Assembly (NCBI GenBank): GCA_903885595.1
Contig: CAISJJ010000116.1
Span: forward strand, 1 to 33,945
DNA: 33,945 bases
Reading direction: 5' to 3'
Origin: an uncultured Bacteroidales bacterium
Lineage (GTDB): Bacteria; Bacteroidota; Bacteroidia; Bacteroidales; FEN-979
Positions within the stretch are counted from its first letter, which is position 1. Every line of letters begins with the position of its first letter. The translations under genes and the position numbers were made by a program. Below, one piece after another: positions 735-18,590 of the stretch. The notes under the pieces were generated by a model. It did no database searches. It saw only the letters and a list, made by a program, of their open reading frames with translations, and had not been told where the DNA came from.

Positions 735-800
735 AGTTCACAGTCGGCAGTTCGCAGTTGGCAGTCGGTTTCATTGACTGCCGGCTGGCGGCTGCAGACT
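735..800. repeat. Decayed heptamer inverted-repeat island A
   Basis: Degenerate 7-nt units (CAGTCGG, CAGTTCG, CAGTTGG) at 736-768 are followed after a 7-nt spacer by the same units in opposite orientation at 776-800. The right end overlaps the TAG stop of the neighbouring gene at 799-801. This is the most diverged and most G+C-rich of the islands in this window. Confidence 0.7.
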
Positions 801-3800
801 AATTTTTCATCATTTTCCCGCTCTCTGATTTTTTTCCCGTCACAAGCCGATAAAAATAAATCCCTCCGGGCATACCTTCCGAATTCCACTGCACGCTTTG
901 TTTTCCTGCGGATTGTTGCCCGTTAACCAGAATTTCCACCACCATTCCGATATTATTGAATATCGTCAGGGTGACAACTCCATCTTCCTTAAGTTCATAT
1001 TCAATAGCAACGCGTGAACTGAACGGATTCGGATAACTGCTGACTGCCATCTGCCGACTGCCGGCTTCAGGAACGGTCACCGCGTCACATGCCTCCTGCA
1101 CCTCTTGCTGACTGTTACACCCTGTTGCATTATCAGAAATTGCAATGATTCCATTTTGTGCGGCGAGGTAATCGCACACGCTCTGCACGTGGCATGTTGA
1201 CAAGGCATTATTGCCATAGATAATCAAATTCGCGACGGAGCCTGCAGAAATATTATCCAACCCACCGAGGCTGGTGAGGCTGTCGTTATAACTGATTTCA
1301 AGGGATCCCCCGATGGAATTCAAACCATAAAGCGCCTCAAGGCTGTGCAGGCCATTGTCATATTTCATGCTAAGGTCTCCTCCGATCGAAACCAGGTTCT
1401 CCAGACCGGTCAGGCCAGGCAATGCAATGTTGCCGAACAGCAGAAGTTTTCCTCCGATCGAAGTCAATCCATTCAAAGCAGACAGATCGGCCAGGGAGAA
1501 ATTCAAATAAATGTTCAATCCTCCTCCGATCGTATGTAATCCTTCCAGGCCATGCAGGCTTGTCAGGCCGGGGTTTCCTCCTCCACCGCCATAAATGCCG
1601 ATATAAATGTCGCCCTCCACTTCAGCCAGGTTATAAAGCCCCGAAAGGTCAGGAAGGATGTGATTTTTAGCAACGGTAAGGCTGCCGGAAAGTGATGTCA
1701 GCGAACTCAAACCAGCTAAACCGGTCAGGGCGTCATTGCCAATAATTTCAAGATTTCCCCCGATGGAAGTCAGTTCTTCCGGACCTGCCAGGCTGGCCAG
1801 CGCATCATTGTTTGAAATGAAAAATCCCTGCCCGATCGTCAGAATATTGTCAAGACCCGACAGACTGGTAAGGCTGTTATTATTGGAAATTTCAACCGTC
1901 CCCCCTACAACAATTAAATTTCCCAGGCCCATTAAATTGGCCAGGGATGGATTACCATGAAGGTTACCTGAATAATCGGAAAATCCTATCTGCAGGTTTC
2001 CGCCAATAGAATTCAGGCTCCCAAGTCCTGTTAAACTGTGCAATGAATCGTTGTCAGAAATATCAATACTTTCTCCGATAACATTCAAATTTTCCAGGCC
2101 TGTCAAACTATAAAGGGCAGGGTTGCCTGAAATGTGAATGTTTCCCCATATTGAATTCAAATTCTCCAGCCCGGCCAGACTGGCCAGGGCATCGTTGTCA
2201 GTGATGTCCATGCCTCCTCCGATGGAAGTCAGATTTTCAGGCCCTGTCAGATTTACCATGGCATTATTTGAATAAATTGTCAGGTTACCTGCGACAGTAG
2301 TCAGATTTTCCAGTCCCGTCAAACTGGTGAGGGCATTGTTTGAATTAATTGACAAATCCCCTGTGATGGTGGTCAGGTTTCCCAGCCCGGTCAAACTGGC
2401 CAGGGAGGGATTGCCATTTGAATACCATTGTCCTCCAATGGCAAGGTTTCCCCCGACAAAAATCAAATTGTTTAATCCTGTTATACTTGTCAATGAATCG
2501 TTTCCGGAGATTTCAATGGAGCCTGACAGGGAAGTCAAACCCTCGAGCCCGGCCAGGCTGATCAGTGCAGGATTTTCAAGAATCGTAAGATTTCCCCCGA
2601 TCAAATGCAAATTTTCCAGCCCTGCCAGGCTGGCCAGTGAGAAATTGTATCCCGAGTAAGTTGACCCAATGTAAACGTCTCCACCGATGACATCCAGATT
2701 ATTCAACCCGGCCAGACTTGTCAGGACTGAGTCGGCATATATTTCGAGTCCTCCCCTGATGGATGTTAAATTTTCCAATCCCGCCAAACTGGTCAGCGCC
2801 GGGTTGCCTGTTATGGCGAGTTTACCCGCAATGGATGTGATCCCCGTCAACCCGTTCAGATTTGAAATGTCATTGCCATTTATGATAACATCCCCTTCCA
2901 GGTCGGTGCATCCAGGGTAAACGGTTTGAAAATTGTCAACATCAGCCTGCGAGATAAAATTATATTGCCCGGTAACCCGGCAGGGGAGTGTAATACCGCA
3001 GCCCATTGCCACATCTAATATGCTGTTGCAACCGGGTGCATTGTACCGGATATCAACGGTGCCTCCGGAGCTGGTTAAATAGGCACAGATGCTTTGGATG
3101 GAACAGGCTGATAATGAATTATTGTACAATATTGTCAGGTTGGTGATGGACCCGGCCATGAGGTTGTCCAGCCCTGAAAGACTATTCAGGCTGAAGTTTC
3201 CATAGATCATCAGGGCACCCCCGATGGATGTCAGCGAATTCAGCCCGGCTAAATTTACCAGGGAGTTATTGCCTCCTCCTCCCCACCCCCACATTTTACC
3301 TATTTCAAGGTTCCCCGGAATGGAAGTGAGCGAATTTAACCCGGTTAAACTGACCAGGGAGTTATTACTATAAACAGAAAGGCTTCCGCCGATAGAGGTC
3401 AATCCTTCCAGCCCGGTTAAACTGGTGAGGGAGTCGTTATTATTAATCTGCATATCACCCCCTATGCTGGTCAATCCTTCCAACCCATCAAAGCTGGTCA
3501 GGTAGGCGGAAGAAATTGAGAAGCTCCCCCCGATGGAGTCCAGGTTTTCCAACCCTGTCAAACTGGTCAGGCTGGAAGAATATATTTGAAGACTACCTCC
3601 GATTGAGGTCAAACTTTCCAACCCTGTCGAACTTGTCAGGGAGGGGTTGCCTGATATGGTAAGTCCGCCCGCAATGGATGATACAGCGCTTAGTCCGTTC
3701 AGGTTCGTAATATCATTTCCGCTGATCGAAACGTCGCCTTCAAGGTCGGTGCATCCCGGGTAAAAGATTTGAAAATTGTCTACATCTGCCTGGGAGTAAA

Positions 3801-4494
3801 AATTATAATTCCCGTGAGGCAGGCATGGCATGGTAATGCCGCAGCCTGCCGCCACATCGAATATACTCTTGCACCCTGTTGCATTGTTTCGAATGTCAAT
3901 GATTCCTCCGGGGCTGGCTAAATATGTGCAAATACCTTGTATTGAGCAGGTTGATAATGAGGAGTTATAAGTCACAAACAAATTTGTGATAGTCCCGGCC
4001 GATAGGTTCTCCAGCCCCGCAAGGCTGACAAGACTGTAGTTGTCGGTTATTACCAGGTCACCGCCGATGGAGGTCAATCCCTCCAACCCGGTCAGACTTG
4101 TCAGGTAATTTCCCCAACGAATTTCCAGGCTGCCACCGATGGAGGTCAATCCCTCCAACCCGGTTAAACTTGTGAGGTAGGCGGCATAAATTTCAAGGCT
4201 GCCACCGATAGAAGTAAGATTATTTAATCCTGCCAGACTGCCCAGCGCCCAGTTGTATCCAATATGAAGGGTATCCCCGATGGAAGTCAGCACGCTTAAT
4301 CCATTAAGATTGGTGATATCATCTCCTTCGATCCAGACACTGCCTTCTATCAGGGAACAACCCGGATAATTGGCCTGGAAATTATCGATCTGGGCCTGGT
4401 TGGAGAAGGTAATGCCTTCGGGCAGGCAGCCCTGCGAAAAGGCGATAGTATGACTGATGGCTACAGCTGTGATGATGAGGATAAGTTTTTTCAT
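799..4494 (-). CDS. Giant secreted leucine-rich L-domain repeat protein with T9SS sorting tail
   Basis: The protein has 1231 aa from an ATG at 4494. The open frame continues upstream only because the adjacent heptamer repeat has no stops, and the ATG at 4494 starts a good signal peptide (MKKLILIITAVAISHTIAFS). Three modules follow, starting near 4428, 3825 and 2982. Each opens with a C-x-x-x-G-x(4)-SQAxxDNFQ...YPGC segment, runs through 23-30 residue units of the type LTSLTGLxNLTSIGGxLxI, and closes with a cap containing STCxxQxxCxYL...GC...C. The third module is far longer than the others. The last 80 or so residues contain YPNPF and GGIYFYRLVTG and match a T9SS type A (Por secretion) tail. 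The protein is probably exported and held at the cell surface, with a binding or adhesive role. The ligand is unknown. Confidence 0.9.
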   Translation of the reverse strand: MKKLILIITAVAISHTIAFSQGCLPEGITFSNQAQIDNFQANYPGCSLIEGSVWIEGDDITNLNGLSVLTSIGDTLHIGYNWALGSLAGLNNLTSIGGSLEIYAAYLTSLTGLEGLTSIGGSLEIRWGNYLTSLTGLEGLTSIGGDLVITDNYSLVSLAGLENLSAGTITNLFVTYNSSLSTCSIQGICTYLASPGGIIDIRNNATGCKSIFDVAAGCGITMPCLPHGNYNFYSQADVDNFQIFYPGCTDLEGDVSISGNDITNLNGLSAVSSIAGGLTISGNPSLTSSTGLESLTSIGGSLQIYSSSLTSLTGLENLDSIGGSFSISSAYLTSFDGLEGLTSIGGDMQINNNDSLTSLTGLEGLTSIGGSLSVYSNNSLVSLTGLNSLTSIPGNLEIGKMWGWGGGGNNSLVNLAGLNSLTSIGGALMIYGNFSLNSLSGLDNLMAGSITNLTILYNNSLSACSIQSICAYLTSSGGTVDIRYNAPGCNSILDVAMGCGITLPCRVTGQYNFISQADVDNFQTVYPGCTDLEGDVIINGNDISNLNGLTGITSIAGKLAITGNPALTSLAGLENLTSIRGGLEIYADSVLTSLAGLNNLDVIGGDVYIGSTYSGYNFSLASLAGLENLHLIGGNLTILENPALISLAGLEGLTSLSGSIEISGNDSLTSITGLNNLIFVGGNLAIGGQWYSNGNPSLASLTGLGNLTTITGDLSINSNNALTSLTGLENLTTVAGNLTIYSNNAMVNLTGPENLTSIGGGMDITDNDALASLAGLENLNSIWGNIHISGNPALYSLTGLENLNVIGESIDISDNDSLHSLTGLGSLNSIGGNLQIGFSDYSGNLHGNPSLANLMGLGNLIVVGGTVEISNNNSLTSLSGLDNILTIGQGFFISNNDALASLAGPEELTSIGGNLEIIGNDALTGLAGLSSLTSLSGSLTVAKNHILPDLSGLYNLAEVEGDIYIGIYGGGGGNPGLTSLHGLEGLHTIGGGLNIYLNFSLADLSALNGLTSIGGKLLLFGNIALPGLTGLENLVSIGGDLSMKYDNGLHSLEALYGLNSIGGSLEISYNDSLTSLGGLDNISAGSVANLIIYGNNALSTCHVQSVCDYLAAQNGIIAISDNATGCNSQQEVQEACDAVTVPEAGSRQMAVSSYPNPFSSRVAIEYELKEDGVVTLTIFNNIGMVVEILVNGQQSAGKQSVQWNSEGMPGGIYFYRLVTGKKSESGKMMKN

Positions 4495-4507
4495 ATGTTG
4501 AGGTTTT

Positions 4508-4618
4508 AAAGTTTGCCGTTTGTGGTTTGCAGTTTCCAGTTTCCAGTTCCCAGTTTGCAGTTCGAGGTTTGTAGCCCGCCATCGATGAAACCAACTGGGA
4601 ACTGCAAACTGCAAACTT
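4508..4618. repeat. Heptamer inverted-repeat island B
   Basis: The left arm 4508-4571 is built of GTTTGCA/GTTTCCA/GTTCCCA units. The right arm 4593-4618 carries the reverse-complement units (AACTGGG, AACTGCA). CAGTTCCCAGTT in the left arm has a perfect complement in the right arm. The island fills the whole gap between the stop of the 2021-aa gene (4623) and 14 nt before the next start codon (4494). Confidence 0.9.
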
Positions 4619-4622
4619 TTTA

Positions 4623-7600
4623 CTATTCTACCATCAGTTTTTTCCTTGCTTTCCATTGCCCGGCACCCAGTTCAACGACGTACATCCCCGGCGGAAGTTT
4701 TGAAATATCGAGATTATTATTTACTGTTTTCCCTTGTAGAACCTTTTGCCCGGTTTGGTTGAAAATGACCACCTCTTCAATGAGTCCGCCGTTTTTGGAA
4801 GAAATCGACACCGATTTATCGGCAGGATTGGGAAACAGCGAATATTGGTCCGCTGAAACGATATCCTCCACAGAAACAGCGCAAGCAGCCAGTACTTCTT
4901 CAGGGCTGTTGCATCCCGGGGCATTATTGCCAATATGAATTTCACCATTCGGAGCTGCCAGGTAATCGCAGACACTTTGCACTTCGCATATTGATAAAGA
5001 ACTGTCACTGCAGATCTCAAGGTTGGTGATAGAACCTGCCACAATGTTCTCCAGGCCTGCAAGGCTGGCCAGGGAGGGATTGTGGCCAATATTAAGTGTC
5101 CCGCCAATGCGGGTTAAATTTTCCAGTCCATGGAGGCTGGTTAATGAAGCATTCCCCCCGGGTATGCCCATGCCTGCTTCATAACAATAGCCAATATAAA
5201 GGCCGCCGCTGATGGAATCAAGATTGTCCAGCCCTGATAAATTCACAAGATGACTGTTTTCATACACACTCAGCCCGCCACCGATGTAATTCAGATTGTT
5301 CAGCCCGTCCAGGTTAATCAAACTGCCGTTGCGCTTAATTCCAACCCATCCGTTCAGCGAGGATACACCTTCCAATCCGGTAAGACTGGAAAGAGCGCCA
5401 TTACCACCAATAAATATGTAGCCCCCTACAGAAGTCAGATTGTTTAATCCTGATAAACTGATCAGTGAAGGATTGCCTCCGTCCAATCCTGAACCTTCAA
5501 TCGGAGTCGGTGCTCTCCCGATGAAAAGGTTTCCTCCGATTGAATGCAAACCTTCCAGCCCTGCAAGGCTTGTCAATCCCTGGTTACAATCAATATCCAA
5601 ATCTCCCCCGATGGAATCCAAACCATTCAATCCAGCCAAATTAACCAGGGCGTTATTGCCCTGACAACCCCAGTATTTATGACCTATTATCAGACTACCA
5701 CCAATATAATTCAGATTTTCAAGCCCCGCTAAACTTGTAAGTGGATTGTTGATGATAAAAAGTGAATCACCGATAGCATTCAATACGCTTAATCCATTCA
5801 GGTTGGTAATATCAGTAGTAGCATAAGGTTCTCCAATTTGAACAGTTCCCTCAATTTCAGTGCACCCCGGATAATTAGTCTGGAAATTATCAATCTGTGA
5901 CTGGGTAGTAAAGGTGATGCCTTCGGGCAGGCAGGATGTCTCGCAGGCAGCCAGCACTTCTTCCGGGCTGTTGCAGCCGGGGGCGTTATTTGCGATCGAA
6001 ACGAATCCAGTCGGGCTTGCCAGGTAATCACAAATACTTAGAACATCACAGGTTGACAAAGCGTAATTTCCCCAGATGCTTAAATTACTGATCGAAGCAG
6101 CTTCAACATGATCCAGCCCGGATAAGCTGGTCAGGGCAGTGTTCATAACAATATTGAGTGATCCGGCAATGAAGGTCACTCCCTCCAACCCCGACAAACT
6201 GGTAAGGGAAGGATTGCCTCCACCATGATAGGGACTACCATAATCACCAATTTGCAGCGTTCCACCGATAGAATCAAGGTTGTTCATACCCTCCAGATCC
6301 ACAAGAGCATAATTCCCATAAATTGCCAGGTGGCCTCCGACAGATGTCAAATTTTCCAACCCGGATAAGTTAATCAGGGAACTGGCAACAATGATCAGAT
6401 TGGCACCTATTCGATGTAAATTATCAAGGCCGGTAAGGTAATTCAGACTGGGATTTCCTGTGCAAGGATCTTCAGGGGGACAATCTGCAAGAATAAGACT
6501 GCCTTCGATGGTTGTCAGGTTTTCCAATCCGGTTAAACTTGTGAGATTTTCATTTCCAAATATTTTAAGGTCTGCCTTTAGGGAAGTTAGATTTTCTAAT
6601 CCTGTGACGCTGGTCATATTGCTATTGAAGGCAATCAGGAGGTCTCCCCCGATGGAAGTCAAACTGTCAAGTCCGGTCAGATTGATCAGGGAAGTATAAT
6701 AAATATCAACACTGCCGCCGACGGAGGTTATAACACTTAATCCGTTGAGGTTGTTTATTCCACTTCCGTTGATGGTAACATCTCCTTCAATCTCAGTGCA
6801 TCCCGGATGATTGACCTGGAAACTGTCAACCTGGTTTTGTGTGGTAAAGGTGATGCCTTCGGGCAGGCAATGTGTTTCGCAGGCAGCTTGTACCTCTTCA
6901 GGGCTGTTGCAGCCGGGGGCATTGCCTTCAATCCAAGGATTACTACCCGGGATTGCCAAATAATCGCAAATACTATTTATCGCACAGTCAGATAAAGAAT
7001 GATTCCCAAGGATTTGTAGGTTTCCGACAGAACCGGCTTCTATATTTTCCAGCCCTGTTATATTGGTCAGGTTGGGATTGCCATAAACCGACATACCTCG
7101 CCTAATACCAATTGCAGTGTAGCCCCCAATGGAATTCAAACCATCTAAACCTGACAGGCTGGTCAATGAGTTGTTGCTATAAATAATAAGGCTTCCTCCA
7201 AGGGAGGTCAATGAGGTCAGCCCTGTTAAATCAGTTAGTGAGGAATCTCCATAAATTGAAAGGTCTTCCCCGATGGATGTCAAATTGCTCAATCCATCCA
7301 AATGGGTGATATCACTTCCGCTGATCTCGACATCTCCTGCTAATTCGGTGCAACCGGGATAATTGACCTGGAAATTATCAATGTCTGCCTGCGATAAAAG
7401 ATAATAGTTGCCAAAAGGCAAACATGGAAGTGAAATTCCACAATCACTTGCCACTTCTGCCGGGTTGTTGCAGCCGGGCGCATTCGAATAAATATTAACA
7501 CTGCCGTTCGGGCTGGTTAAATAATTGCAGAGACTTTGGACGGAACAAGTAGATAATGACTCATTGCCAGCGATAGTCCATGAATTGATTGTGCCGGCAT

Positions 7601-11214: not shown

Positions 11215-11283
11215 AAAGTTTGCAGTTTGCAGTTCGCAGTTTGCAGTTTGATAAACTCACTGGGAACTGGGAACTGGGAACTT
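11215..11283. repeat. Heptamer inverted-repeat island C
   Basis: Four to five GTTTGCA-type units at 11215-11248 are followed by a short centre and three AACTGGG units in the opposite orientation to 11283. The centre can itself fold (AGTTT-GAT-AAACT). The left end is 7 nt upstream of the receiver-only gene's ATG at 11208. Confidence 0.9.
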
Positions 11284-12218: not shown

Positions 12219-12253
12219 GAAAGTTTGCAGTTTGCAGTTTGCAGTTTGCAGTT
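12219..12253. repeat. Heptamer array D-left
   Basis: At least four perfect GTTTGCA units lead directly into the TGA stop of the ATPase gene (12253-12255). The array is preceded by the palindrome-like AACTTTGAAAGTT, which also precedes array E-left at 15738. It lies 26 nt upstream of the ATG at 12193, the same distance as E-left from its gene. Confidence 0.9.
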
Positions 12254-14683: not shown

Positions 14684-15712
14684 TTACTTTCCTGTCGCTA
14701 CTCCGATGCTTCCAAATTGAGCGTTTTGTTCAAAGTAATAGTAAAGGAAAAAGATCGTATCAAATCTGAGAAAAAACGGATTTGACGTCGTCGTGATTTC
14801 ACCAGAATATTTTGTATCAAAGCCGTTCTGCAAATTGTATATGGGATTTCCGCGATACCTTTCCCAGTGAATTCCATCCCTGCTCTCTGAATACCCGATG
14901 GCTTCAATTTTTCCGTTGCTTCCGGCATAATACATGATGAATCCTCCGGGGATTTTGGAAACATTCGCCATCCATGCCTCTTTTTCATCCCATGCCCCTT
15001 CTTTCCCGGTCATGAAGACCGGGTCGCTTTCCGCAAAAGGCTGAAGTGTGGTAGAAGGATCATTGTGTTTTTTCCAGGTAAATCCATCCTGTGAAAAAGC
15101 CATGCCGATATAAAAGTCAGCCCTGCCTGCAAAATCTCTTCCACCTGTATAATACATCCGGTAACCTCCATCTTCCAGTTTAAGAACAGAACACGGGAGA
15201 ATGAAGCCATCGTCCCATTCCCCTTTCTTTCCGGAAGTCATTACCGGTGTATTGCCGCGGACCCAGGGTCCGGAAAGCTCCTTTGCCGCTGCCCTCCCGA
15301 CGGAAGGGCCGGGAGAATACCCTGGAAGTTCCTGGCAATTGTAGTACACCACCCAGCAGGTATCTTCTTTCAGAATGATCCCGGGACCAACCGTAAAAGC
15401 GTCAAATCCGGAGGTGTCAGGAGCCAAAACCGGATTTCCTTTAAATTTTCTGAAATTGAATCCGTCGCCTGAAGTTGCGAGTCCTATGGCCATCCTGCCG
15501 GCTACGTTGCCTCCCATGTAGAAGAGATAAAAGGTGTTTTCAAAAAAGATGACCTGGGGCGCTGAAACGAACAGTTCATCCCATGAGCCCGGTTTCCCGC
15601 GTTCGAGTACCGGGTTGTTGTTATAACCCGCAAATTCCGTAGGTGAAGGAGCATCGTTCTGCCGGCAAGTAGAGATCATCAAAGGAAGGAGAAGAAAAAA
15701 GGTTTTAAGCAT
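14684..15712 (-). CDS. Glycosidase-like beta-propeller lipoprotein, copy 3
   Basis: The protein has 342 aa from an ATG at 15712. The frame stays open a further 40 codons upstream, but those codons are the heptamer array read as a GTGNWEL-type peptide, so the later ATG, which gives the lipoprotein signal MLKTFFLLLPLMISTC, is the real start. The body matches copies 1 and 2 (PGSWDELF, FYLFYMGGN, GFDAFTVGPGI, GEWDDGF, YRMYYTGG, GFIMYYAGSN). It is probably anchored in a membrane facing the periplasm or the outside. A glycan-binding or hydrolytic role is a family-level inference only. Confidence 0.8.
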   Translation of the reverse strand: MLKTFFLLLPLMISTCRQNDAPSPTEFAGYNNNPVLERGKPGSWDELFVSAPQVIFFENTFYLFYMGGNVAGRMAIGLATSGDGFNFRKFKGNPVLAPDTSGFDAFTVGPGIILKEDTCWVVYYNCQELPGYSPGPSVGRAAAKELSGPWVRGNTPVMTSGKKGEWDDGFILPCSVLKLEDGGYRMYYTGGRDFAGRADFYIGMAFSQDGFTWKKHNDPSTTLQPFAESDPVFMTGKEGAWDEKEAWMANVSKIPGGFIMYYAGSNGKIEAIGYSESRDGIHWERYRGNPIYNLQNGFDTKYSGEITTTSNPFFLRFDTIFFLYYYFEQNAQFGSIGVATGK

Positions 15713-15737: not shown

Positions 15738-15830
15738 GAAAGTTCCCAGTTCCCAGTTCCCAGTTCCCAGTTCCCAGTTCCCAGTTCCCAGTTTGCAGTT
15801 CCCAGTTTGCAGTTTGCAGTTTGCAGTTTC
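15738..15830. repeat. Heptamer array E-left
   Basis: Twelve full units occupy 15742-15825: seven perfect GTTCCCA copies, then GTTTGCA, GTTCCCA and three GTTTGCA copies. This is the longest forward-oriented array in the window. It ends 18 nt before the stop codon of the four-helix-bundle gene and is complementary to array E-right beyond that gene. Confidence 0.95.
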
Positions 15831-15848
15831 AAATAAAGGTAATAATAT

Positions 15849-16220
15849 TCAATCTTTCCAGATGAATTTATCAGGATTGTCGATCATAAAGGAAAGAATT
15901 TTTCCGATTTCTTCAGCTTGCTGGTACAACTTGATTTGCAACTCCTTATCTATATACCCGCAACTGAACGCAAAATCAATCCAAACCATTGTTTCGGTAT
16001 TTTCCATATCTGAATCTGTCAGTTTGCTGATAAAATGAGCCTTGTACCTTCTTTTTCTATATCCTTCTGCCATATTTGAGCATACCGATCTTGAAGATCT
16101 TCTTATCTGAGATGTCAATCCGTATTTTTCATCTCCTGGAAACCTTTTTGTTATTTGAAAAATGTCCATCGCATTCTCAAATGACTTTTTATAAACAGAT
16201 AAATCCTTAAAATTTCCCAT
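15849..16220 (-). CDS. Free-standing four-helix-bundle (S23-like) protein
   Basis: The protein has 123 aa. It carries the family hallmark FPGDEKYGLTSQIRRSS followed by NMAEGYRKRR, with the expected length and helical, charged composition. The family includes proteins encoded in 23S rRNA intervening sequences and the Avd accessory protein of diversity-generating retroelements. No 23S rRNA, reverse transcriptase or template/variable repeat is visible here. The gene sits between two long heptamer arrays of opposite orientation (15738-15830 and 16296-16400), which no other short gene here shows so clearly. Members are thought to bind nucleic acid or proteins; the function here is unknown. Confidence 0.85.
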   Translation of the reverse strand: MGNFKDLSVYKKSFENAMDIFQITKRFPGDEKYGLTSQIRRSSRSVCSNMAEGYRKRRYKAHFISKLTDSDMENTETMVWIDFAFSCGYIDKELQIKLYQQAEEIGKILSFMIDNPDKFIWKD

Positions 16221-16295
16221 TTCGTTTTCTGCTTAATCGGAAAAAACCGAAAAGGTAATACGATAATTCAAAAAAAATCCTTGTCAACCTTAAAC

Positions 16296-16400
16296 CGCAA
16301 ACTGGGAACTGGGAACTGGGAACTGGGAACTGGGAACTGGAAACTGGAAACTGGGAACTGGAAACTGGAAACTGGAAACTGGGAACTGCAAACAGCAAAC
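16296..16400. repeat. Heptamer array E-right
   Basis: About fifteen units run in the opposite orientation to E-left: CGCAAAC, five TGGGAAC, then a mix of TGGAAAC and TGGGAAC, ending TGCAAAC and AGCAAAC. The last base is also the first base of the stop codon of the histidine kinase gene (16400-16402). The five TGGGAAC units are perfectly complementary to GTTCCCA units of E-left over 35 nt. Confidence 0.95.
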
Positions 16401-18454
16401 TACCTCCCCACCACCGGTATCCCAAATTCCACCCTGGTTCCAATACTTTCACCATAATCATCTTTCAGGTCGATGATCTCCATCCGGATCTTCTTTTTCA
16501 GCTTTTTATTGAGGATATCAAGACGGTCGCGGGTAATGAATATGGCCATGGAACGGTGCCTGATTTTTTGCTTTGATTCAATCTCAAGCGCCTTTTCACG
16601 GCCAACGCCGTCATCTTCCACCTCAACCCGGATAAATCCATCGTTCAACCGGAAATTGACTTCGATATGGCCTGATCTCTCTTTATGCCTGATCCCGTGT
16701 TCAATCGCATTTTCAATGAACGGTTGGGCCAGCATCGGGGGTATCAACACATTTTCGGTATCGATTTTTTCATCAACCGTGATCTTGTAATCAAATTTCC
16801 CGGCATACCTGACCTTCTGCAACTCCAGATAATTTTCAATTGTGCTGACCTCCTTTTCAAGCGGTACATATTCTTCCGTTGAATTGTCAAGGATATTCCT
16901 AACCAGTTGCGAGAATCGGGAAAGATAGATGCTTGCCTGGTCGGAGTTTTCGTTGATCACAAAATTCTGGATGCTGGCAAGGGAATTAAAAATAAAATGA
17001 GGGTTCATCTGCGCCCTGAGCAGCCGCTGTTCCATGCTCACCGATTGTTGTTCTGCCTTGAGTTTTCTTCGCTGAAAAATAAGCAGTAAAATCAGGCTGA
17101 ACAACACAATACCTGCACCCGAACTTATGAAAATCAGCCTGCTCCTGGATAATTTCAACTGGTGAAACTCATTATCCTTTGCAAGGTTGATGATTTTCTG
17201 ATCCAGGCGTTGGGCTTCATCCTCGGCAACCATCAGATCGATCTGTTTCCCTTGCTGTGAAGCATACATGGAATCTCTTGTCTGGTAAGTCAGTTGGAGG
17301 TAATCAATTGCCTCCTGGTATTCACCCTTTGCCACGGCCAGTTTGAAGCGAAACTGGTTCATGTGATATTTTGAGCGCATTGCCATAAAATAATCCATGA
17401 TCTTACCAACAGCATTGACAAGGGCTCCCTGGGCCGACGTGTTTTTCCAATCACGGGAGAAGAAATCTTCCAGTCTTGCCTCGCAAAGATCCAGGTGGTC
17501 TTTTGTATCTGCATATCTCGATGCATTCAGATCAAGCATTGCCAGGTCGATGAGGACTGCCGCCTGCAGGTAACCGCAATTGAATGACTGGCTGGCTTTT
17601 AATGCTTTTTCATAATAATGCCCTGCAAGGGACAGGTCTCCGGTCTCTTTATAAAACGGAGTGAACCAATCATAATAGTTGCCCAGACAAACATTGATGA
17701 TCGTTATAAGGCCATCATGTTGAATTTCAGACGCCAATGCCATTGCTGAATCACAGTAGGTCAGTGCCTTATGTTTTTCCGCCGGCGATATTTTACTAGT
17801 CGTATAAAACCCCGCGATCTGCGCCAGGGAGTACGTCTCTTTATAACGATCGTGATATTTTCGTGAATGATCCAGCATTTTAAAACCATAAAACAAAGCA
17901 CTGTCAGCGGGCCCGTATTTTAAAAAGAACATCGTCATACTCATGGCATCGTAAACATCGTAAAAGGATCGATCATTCCCCGCTGACTGATAATACCCGA
18001 GTGCCTTACGGTAATAGCCGGTGGCTTTGTCTGCCCTCAGGATTGCGAAATTGATATGGCCCATCATCATGTTCAAATCCCCAAGTTCTTTGTTAAACGA
18101 GCCTTTTTCCAGGATCGTTTGTGCTGATAAAAAGGATATAAGTGCATTTTTAAAATCCATCTTATAATAGTAAGCATTTCCGATATTAATCTTCACCAGC
18201 GCAACATCAAAGGCTTTTGTACGGGTTGTTGCCAGCCGGATCGCCTGGCTGGCATACCTGATACTTGAATCAAAATTCAGTGGGGCATAATAAGAGGCGA
18301 GGGTATTCAGAATAAAGAATTGTTCACTGGTTTCTGCAACCGGCAATATTCTCAACAGGCTGTCGATGGTTTGTCGGGAAATAATTTTAAAATCCCTTGA
18401 TAAGGCAGTGAATGAGGAGAGCAGGAGGAGTATAAGGAGTAAGGCTTTTCGCAT
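16400..18454 (-). CDS. LytS/YehU-type sensor histidine kinase with TPR-like sensor region
   Basis: The protein has 684 aa. The N-terminal signal [19 protein letters not shown] is followed by a helical, tetratricopeptide-like region to about residue 410, a membrane segment near 440-460 ([13 protein letters not shown]) and a short coiled-coil linker. The kinase core is the PF06580 type, with phospho-acceptor His486 in [10 protein letters not shown] and an ATP-binding part containing [14 protein letters not shown] and VEDDGVGR. The TPR region should lie in the periplasm. Its partner is the LytTR regulator encoded just upstream at 18594-19346, from which it is separated only by heptamer island F. 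Confidence 0.93.
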
Positions 18455-18480: not shown

Positions 18481-18590
18481 CAAGTTTGCAGTTTACAGTT
18501 TACAGTTTGCAGTTTGCAGTTCCCAGTTTGCAGTTCGACGCATCCTGCAAACTGGGAACTGGGAACTGGGAACTATGAATTGGGAACTTT
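18481..18590. repeat. Heptamer inverted-repeat island F with a perfect 17-bp stem
   Basis: The left arm 18481-18536 (GTTTGCA, GTTTACA, GTTCCCA units) and the right arm 18545-18590 (AACTGGG units) face each other. CAGTTCCCAGTTTGCAG at 18517-18533 pairs perfectly with 18545-18561 across an 11-nt loop. The island lies between the response regulator stop (18594) and the kinase start (18454). Confidence 0.95.

Follow-up and report, generated by a model that had tools for sequence, protein, structure and literature searches.

An S23-like gene between inverted heptamer arrays points to a small mobile DNA element of a little-described kind

The window analysed here is a 33,945-nucleotide stretch from an uncultured Bacteroidales bacterium (GCA_903885595.1, contig CAISJJ010000116.1), in which a gene for an S23-like four-helix-bundle protein lies between two long arrays of 7-nt units inverted relative to each other. 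The element extends from the stop codon of a histidine kinase gene (16400–16402) to position 15741. It is located outside rRNA genes, between the kinase and a GH43-like gene, and is composed as follows.

16400–18454, minus strand: left-hand neighbour, histidine kinase gene (His_kinase, PF06580), assigned by Pfam and with orthologs in relatives.
16300–16400, minus strand: upstream arm (5′ of S23 on the sense strand), 101 nt, about 14.4 units of AGTTCCC/AGTTTCC/AGTTTGC, starting within the kinase stop codon.
16221–16299, minus strand: leader from the upstream arm to the S23 start, similar by inspection in G331, a genome of another genus of the family.
15849–16220, minus strand: S23-like four-helix-bundle gene, 123 aa (PF05635/TIGR02436).
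15741–15829, minus strand: downstream arm (3′ of S23), 89 nt, about 12.7 units of AGTTCCC/AGTTTGC, complement of the upstream arm.
14684–15712, minus strand: right-hand neighbour, GH43-like gene (PF04616 at 25 bits, under the curated cut-off of 32.2).

The first-pass annotation had placed both arrays correctly to a few bases, and its estimate of at least 35 nt of perfect complement between the arms was borne out, the longest such complement being 44 nt. The array at 16300–16400 is chiefly the complement of AGTTCCC/AGTTTCC, and its outer edge abuts the kinase gene as had been described: the first unit takes its AG from the stop codon TAG (TAGTTTGC). Among units standing before another AGTT, the whole window contained AGTTCCC 23 times, AGTTTGC 18, AGTTTCC 7, AGTTCGC 2 and AGTTTAC 2. 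The predicted RNA of the element formed an outer stem of 53 pairs with no interruption, and its folding energy was −241.7 kcal/mol as compared with −162.1 (sd 7.2) in 20 dinucleotide shuffles, giving a z of −11. An Rfam scan of the window at gathering thresholds gave zero matches. The S23 gene may possess its own promoter within the loop, since the leader resembles that of G331.

The S23 protein scored 112 bits against PF05635 (cut-off 33.8) and 100.6 bits against TIGR02436 (cut-off 24). This PF05635 gene was the sole one recognised between the arms, and no nuclease family was found among its Pfam or NCBIfam matches. To our knowledge, no function has been established for S23-like genes. PHROG 3206, described as the Avd protein of diversity-generating retroelements (DGR), matched S23 with an E-value of 1.6e-9. 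Zero S23 matches were found among phage records and zero matches in the defence library. Solved relatives of the protein are 2gsc and 2rld, and a solved S23 relative is described as a pentamer (PMC4990558). A comparison of the S23 genes of the window and G331 gave pN of 0.118 and pS of 0.739, and pN/pS was 0.13–0.40 in eleven further S23 pairs, indicating that the gene is under purifying selection.

Enclosure of S23 genes by inverted arms was evaluated by a local alignment of complementarity between the 300 nt before and the 300 nt after each gene (match 1, mismatch −1.5, gap −3), and a gene was called armed at a score of at least 16. All of the evidence is comparative, this single scoring rule defines the arms throughout, and the genomes are mostly fragmented assemblies. 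S23-like genes were present in all 12 genomes searched with PF05635, at 12 places in the starting genome (G000) and 112 in eleven relatives; 102 loci were taken, holding 105 S23 open reading frames (ORFs), of which 99 had both flanks. Arms were detected for 66 of these 99 genes versus 4 of 626 control ORFs from 800 kb of G019 and G013, the four being one GxxExxY gene, one gene of 599 aa and two ORFs at S23 loci, of which one is an S23 gene and the other antisense (three S23 genes occur among the ORFs of that 800 kb). Mispaired flanks, with the left of one S23 and the right of another, reached the score in 158 of 8742 combinations versus 63 of 94 for own flanks. A wider set was composed of the best 80 of 216 loci from named genomes of many phyla and 11 viral-contig loci, where 46 of the 87 loci with both flanks were armed; four of them came from first-set genomes and were all armed, which leaves 42 of 83 for the new ones. 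The corresponding controls were 38 of 1500 mispaired flanks and 7 of 305 neighbour ORFs. Nine of the 11 viral-contig loci were armed, as were 7 of 10 S23 loci from named plasmids, these ten being taken out of 43 records with a match. The enrichment between arms on which the first-pass annotation had staked its proposal was hence observed in both sets, and supports its idea that inverted-repeat elements form a family in which the four-helix protein is cargo or helper.

With phylum labels taken from record titles, armed loci of the pooled sets were located in Bacteroidota, cyanobacterial plasmids, Cloacimonadota, Nitrospirota, Proteobacteria, Ignavibacteria, Chloroflexota, Acidobacteria, Acetothermia, Marinimicrobia, Firmicutes and a Syntrophus. 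Such elements are thus spread over several bacterial phyla and also occur in viral contigs; loci from archaea (ANME-1/Methanophagales) and Omnitrophota were below a score of 16 or had no flank on one side. The period of the arm units in the upstream flank was 7 in 27 and 8 in 22 of the 66 armed first-set loci. For 65 armed loci, a neighbour's stop codon was within 10 nt of the outer edge at 34 of 66 stop-side junctions, and a start codon was equally close at 12 of 60 start-side junctions. The neighbours at 61 loci were both co-directional with S23 in 23 cases, both opposed in 19, convergent in 11 and divergent in 8. Armed S23 proteins had a mean net charge of +3.6, and 105 of 116 were positive.

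The arm unit tended to follow the protein. Over the 116 armed unique proteins, S23 similarity correlated with the 4-mer content of the arms (Mantel r 0.28; 0 of 2000 permutations), and the 1806 cross-phylum pairs gave r 0.27, which was still 0.27 after the G+C difference was removed, as compared with 0.02 for the control with reverse-complemented arms. When arms were permuted within phylum, the mean r was 0.07 and the maximum 0.21, with 0 of 1000 permutations reaching 0.27. Since S23 similarity predicts arm-unit similarity even across phyla, this suggests that the S23 protein may recognise its own arms. By eye, KTHKDLDVWK-type proteins went with GTRA-type units, SYKDL-type proteins with AGGG/AGGC units, and, in one Bacteroidota genome and two viral contigs, MRDH..KLRAFELAD-type proteins with AGGC-type units. 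G outnumbered C in the left arm of 103 of 116 loci, the window being an exception.

Relatives of the window S23 across the order were scored at 24 of 30 loci, of which 14 were armed; CAGTNN or CAGTNNN units were present in 8 of 13 armed loci from other families, the window being left out. In 295 genomes, including the starting case G000, arrays of CAGTNNN (at least five matches) were found in 31 of 61 genomes with a window-type S23 versus 28 of 234 without it. For the closest S23, the figures were 17 of 27 versus 42 of 268 (odds ratio 9.1), as compared with 5 of 27 versus 21 of 268 (odds ratio 2.7) for a control unit. A part of this effect is general array richness, because the looser S23 list tracks the control unit as well (13 of 61 versus 13 of 234). 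The CAGT core is claimed solely for the window clade. A contiguous anatomy of core plus spacer for all units was tried and rejected, as a single variable block was found in 11 of 33 testable loci with 7.9 expected.

The two arms of a locus also matched each other better than they matched the arms of other loci, with a mean score of 24.2 for own arms versus 9.1. The own partner was the best match in 44 of 63 armed loci, and not in all of them because related units recur. Four species of the genus (L072, L114, L120 and L128) share an orthologous site, with the same S23 and the same two neighbours, at which the unit has changed in both arms together; own scores were 24–42 and those between unit types 7–10. 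In 66 of 70 loci, the mirror order of unit variants scored higher than the mean of its shuffles; the observed score was reached by 5 or fewer of 100 shuffles in 18 loci, and by 0 of 100 in 10 loci. This test is biased upwards, as the arms were cut by the same alignment, so only its strongest cases (L033, L131 and L249) count.

Arms and gene were present or absent as a block at fixed sites. The window locus in G331 contained the kinase (66% identity), arms of AGTTCCC/AGTTTGC type and an S23 identical at 97 of 123 positions. In G003, the kinase (63%) is followed by its stop codon, four bases and then the GH43-like gene (142 of 205 aligned positions identical), with the array absent. The GH43-like gene thus adjoins the kinase locus both in G003, without the element, and by inspection in G331, with it. 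Further pairs were compared by eye on complete cyanobacterial plasmids. A TraM-type locus was filled in Nostoc C052 and N. edaphicum and unfilled in two Nostoc C057 plasmids, and in pNsp_c of Nostoc sp. ATCC 53789 it had inverted arrays with a short centre and no S23. An integrase locus was filled in two plasmids of Calothrix brevissima NIES-22 and unfilled in Tolypothrix PCC 7601 and N. carneum. Anabaena 90 and Pseudanabaena galeata had the element in the cas6–cas4 gap, which was unfilled in Nostoc UHCC 0302 and contained only a short array in Pseudanabaena ABRG5-3. The nrdB–nrdA gap was filled (antisense) in N. edaphicum and unfilled in Calothrix NIES-4105. At the plasmid junctions, a few to some tens of bases were replaced or adjoined. 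The comparison of loci with and without the unit, as proposed in the first-pass annotation, yielded array-free unfilled sites; the clean junctions it asked about were not found at the TraM site.

Related S23 genes were mostly located in unrelated neighbourhoods. After removal of five loci present twice, 881 of 1070 S23 pairs with at least 60% identity had no common neighbour protein in the flanks taken (E 1e-6; 906 of 1102 before removal), as did 37 of 77 pairs with at least 75% identity. These are upper figures because the flanks were short.

Arrays of all kinds, with or without a gene, were counted in the same 800 kb of two relatives. Arrays with a score of at least 14 numbered 24 at period 7 and 30 at period 8, with 0–3 at each other period between 5 and 12 and zero in one shuffle per contig (blocks of two bases). 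Of 55 arrays of period 7–9, 14 belong to an inverted pair. The inverted pairs numbered ten; three had loops longer than 300 nt, all of them S23 loci, and the other seven had loops of 32–219 nt, one of which overlaps an unidentified 81-aa ORF. The window itself contains further islands of the units of its element, in agreement with the short-centred islands listed in the first-pass annotation.

4511–4617, no strand: gene-less island of the window element's units, inverted, centre of about 30 nt.
11217–11282, no strand: gene-less island of the window element's units, inverted, centre of 8 nt.
12222–12253, plus strand: one-sided AGTTTGC array.
18483–18588, no strand: inverted gene-less island with a short centre, on the 5′ side of the kinase.

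Arrays of AACTGGG type were found at the 5′ side of the kinase in G003 and G331 as well.

Collectively, these observations point to a small mobile DNA element of a little-described kind, and we regard it as rather probable that the feature is a small discrete element in which one S23-like gene lies within inverted arrays of a unit that S23 recognises. From the sequences compared, it is best read as one putative non-nuclease helper protein together with arrays of its candidate binding unit and dispersed gene-less arrays. The association of protein similarity with arm unit across phyla makes helper a better fit than cargo. An S23 oligomer, usually positively charged, would bind the repeated units either as a double-stranded DNA array or as an extruded hairpin, and this binding would aid the spread and upkeep of its own cassette and of the gene-less arrays, both being kept in intergenic gaps, often at stop codons. 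Since S23 has no known nuclease domain, cutting and joining would be left to a host or partner enzyme, comparable to the pairing of Avd with a separate reverse transcriptase. The arms may lengthen by slippage and stay matched via copying across the hairpin, and the gene-less arrays would be non-autonomous derivatives, as REPs (repetitive extragenic palindromes) are to RAYTs (REP-associated tyrosine transposases).

Several observations weigh against this interpretation. No transposition was seen, inspection of the aligned sites by eye showed no target-site duplication, and at the TraM site the element took the place of a short gap instead of inserting cleanly. A search with two S23 genes of cyanobacterial plasmids revealed no near-identical full copy at an unrelated site: the first retrieved itself alone, and the second an ortholog, diverged relatives and 41-nt matches to its own 3′ end. 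One third of S23 genes fell short of the arm score, and arms are not exclusive to S23, since GxxExxY (PF13366) genes lay between inverted repeats in 14 of 22 scored loci. S23-free arrays are common, 41 of the 55 census arrays being outside any inverted pair. The arms of the nearest cross-phylum protein were more alike than average in only 66 of 116 cases, so the correlation sits in close pairs, and it could arise if gene and arms were inherited together without binding. Charge also fails to split armed from unarmed proteins in general, because 15 of the other 18 among 26 low-scoring S23 proteins were positive (3 neutral), although a group of eight unarmed proteins of 141–143 aa (two identical) was negative in 8 of 8. 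Finally, in a survey of the sdhA–sdhB gap in 19 genomes of the genus, of which six were unreadable by the script, S23 in arms was found in 2 of 13 readable genomes (gaps of 459 and 469 nt), while in the other 11 the sdhA stop was followed, as judged by eye, by heptamer arrays with no gene (gaps of 59–184 nt). Because arrays persist there in S23-free species, they may be host features that S23 has joined. Arms independent of the gene, the counter-case raised in the first-pass annotation, were hence partly seen, as at this site; at other sites, the window locus included, the array is missing where the gene is.

That last point is the core of a passenger explanation, in which inverted heptamer arrays are an intergenic feature of the host, comparable with the short tandemly repeated repetitive sequences (STRRs) of cyanobacteria, and S23 settles in their loops by array recombination. 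The differing units of the gene-less arrays after sdhA, with only two species having S23 there, fit it, as do the four gene-less islands sharing the unit of the window element and the S23-free arrays of pNsp_c (inverted, short centre) and Pseudanabaena ABRG5-3. However, where S23 is absent from the window locus and from several plasmid sites, so is the array, the unit tracks S23 similarity across phyla, and the three inverted pairs with long loops in the census were all S23 loci; we consider this explanation quite unlikely. An ordinary inverted-repeat transposon that a transposase mobilises in trans, with S23 as neutral cargo, would account for inverted ends, presence or absence at fixed sites and scatter among unrelated neighbours. 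It appears highly improbable, as there is no fixed terminal repeat, the ends being arrays that differ by locus, and as S23 is under purifying selection and predicts the ends.

The remaining alternative is an RNA element resembling the intervening sequences (IVS) of 23S rRNA, where the arms form an RNA stem cut by RNase III and the S23 insert is removed harmlessly from transcripts; the S23 inserts in 23S rRNA would then be the special case in which such elements were first seen. The predicted stem is very stable (z −11), and PMC4990558 describes for the Coxiella 23S rRNA IVS an S23 ORF preceded by two or three tandem heptamers, a terminal stem of 28 bp and excision by RNase III. The absence of orientation bias (23 co-directional, 19 opposed) also fits, because an inverted-repeat stem forms either way round. 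Selection on a sense-strand stem should favour G·U over A·C among the arm mismatches, whereas 144 G·U and 207 A·C were counted (by locus 32 versus 45 with 39 ties, not significant), and none of eight 23S signature oligonucleotides was found in any of the 91 wider loci. We judge this explanation unlikely as a whole. An RNA role is nevertheless compatible with the counts, since the A·C excess would be G·U in antisense RNA. For the S23-recognised element preferred here, DNA is slightly favoured over RNA as the site of action because the arm mismatches show no sense-strand G·U excess.

The element shares with the 23S rRNA IVS the protein family and an ORF within inverted repeats that give a long stem, and, with Coxiella, tandem heptamers before the ORF; the IVS has long been suspected to be mobile. 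According to work cited in PMC4990558, IVS with S23 ORFs are also present in Leptospira and others. The window element differs in lying between protein-coding genes and not in an rRNA gene, and the elements described here mostly have 7- or 8-nt arrays on both sides, a correlation between unit and protein, and scattered gene-less arrays. In the REP/RAYT system, a small gene is flanked by inverted palindromic repeats, and gene-less copies are dispersed between genes; RAYT is a tyrosine transposase and REP a palindrome of 20–40 bp. The likeness to this system (REPINs; PMC3116915 and PMC3733652) consists of a gene in inverted repeats together with dispersed gene-less repeats, both found here. Unlike it, no Y1/HUH transposase was recognised between the window arms, S23 is without a known nuclease domain, and the arms are arrays of 6–9-nt units, not one palindrome. 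S23-like proteins resemble Avd (PMC10053308), the related four-helix protein of the DGR; none of the 16 Pfam-scanned window ORFs matched a reverse transcriptase, and neither such a gene nor a pair of template and variable repeats was noticed beside S23, no systematic search having been made. The element is also distinguished from an insertion sequence or a miniature inverted-repeat transposable element by having no fixed terminal inverted repeats and no target-site duplication visible by eye. The short tandemly repeated repetitive sequences of cyanobacteria are dispersed intergenic 7-nt tandem arrays, similar to those described here. So are the TAACTGA repeats (PMC4679880), which differ in being reported as direct, with one inverted case; the term 'S23' is absent from the main text of that paper, and no tie to an S23 gene was seen in it. 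No account of S23 genes between inverted heptamer arrays was recognised among the papers listed, all of them open-licence, which is weak evidence of absence.

Some side observations were made. In the cas6–cas4 gap of the Dolichospermum plasmid pUHCC0315a (L332), an unrelated hairpin-like sequence (AGGTTGGGTTGACGC...) was located where Anabaena 90 has its S23 element, which may mark this gap as a hot spot for elements with hairpins. In the sdhA–sdhB gap (L274–L289), the array units differ among species, indicating fast unit turnover at a fixed place. The GxxExxY loci (L292–L321, from G000 and relatives) have looser units, such as CACGAAG or CAGAGACG, and a second kind of repeat-armed cassette is possible. 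The unarmed, negatively charged 141–143-aa subfamily (L061, L091, L106, L115, L125, L130, L136 and L139) looks vertically inherited and is perhaps domesticated, as judged from between-species DNA similarity that extends into both flanks. The S23 proteins of L185 and L218, from a Chloroflexota and a Methanophagales (archaeal) assembly, have 86% identity across 86 residues, which reflects either transfer between domains or mis-binning. Within the window, the mechanical start (4656) of the ORF at 799–4656 reads through the island at 4511–4617, and the true start is probably near 4494. AGTT-type arrays gave 46 matches in the 6-Mb bin of G000, most of them within this 34-kb contig, and a TGAC control pattern gave 369 across the bin. 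Mis-binning or recent acquisition of the contig is possible; its G+C (0.46) is unremarkable against the rest of the bin, and the locus comparisons are unaffected by possible mis-binning.

The link between S23-like genes and heptamer arrays, for which earlier reports gave no clear cause for the arrays, makes both directly testable, and the pairs of filled and unfilled sites on complete plasmids are clean material for element movement. We tentatively extend the interpretation, as a possibility held with some reserve, to a general bacterial, perhaps archaeal, mobile class of cassettes with a single gene, for a non-nuclease four-helix protein reading a short word repeated in the inverted arrays at either end, with a clade-by-clade code from protein to word, gene-less heptamer footprints, and the 23S inserts as members. 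If true, the dispersed and so far unexplained heptamer arrays would be gene-less footprints of S23 cassettes, and the same reading would offer an origin for the S23 ORFs in 23S rRNA.

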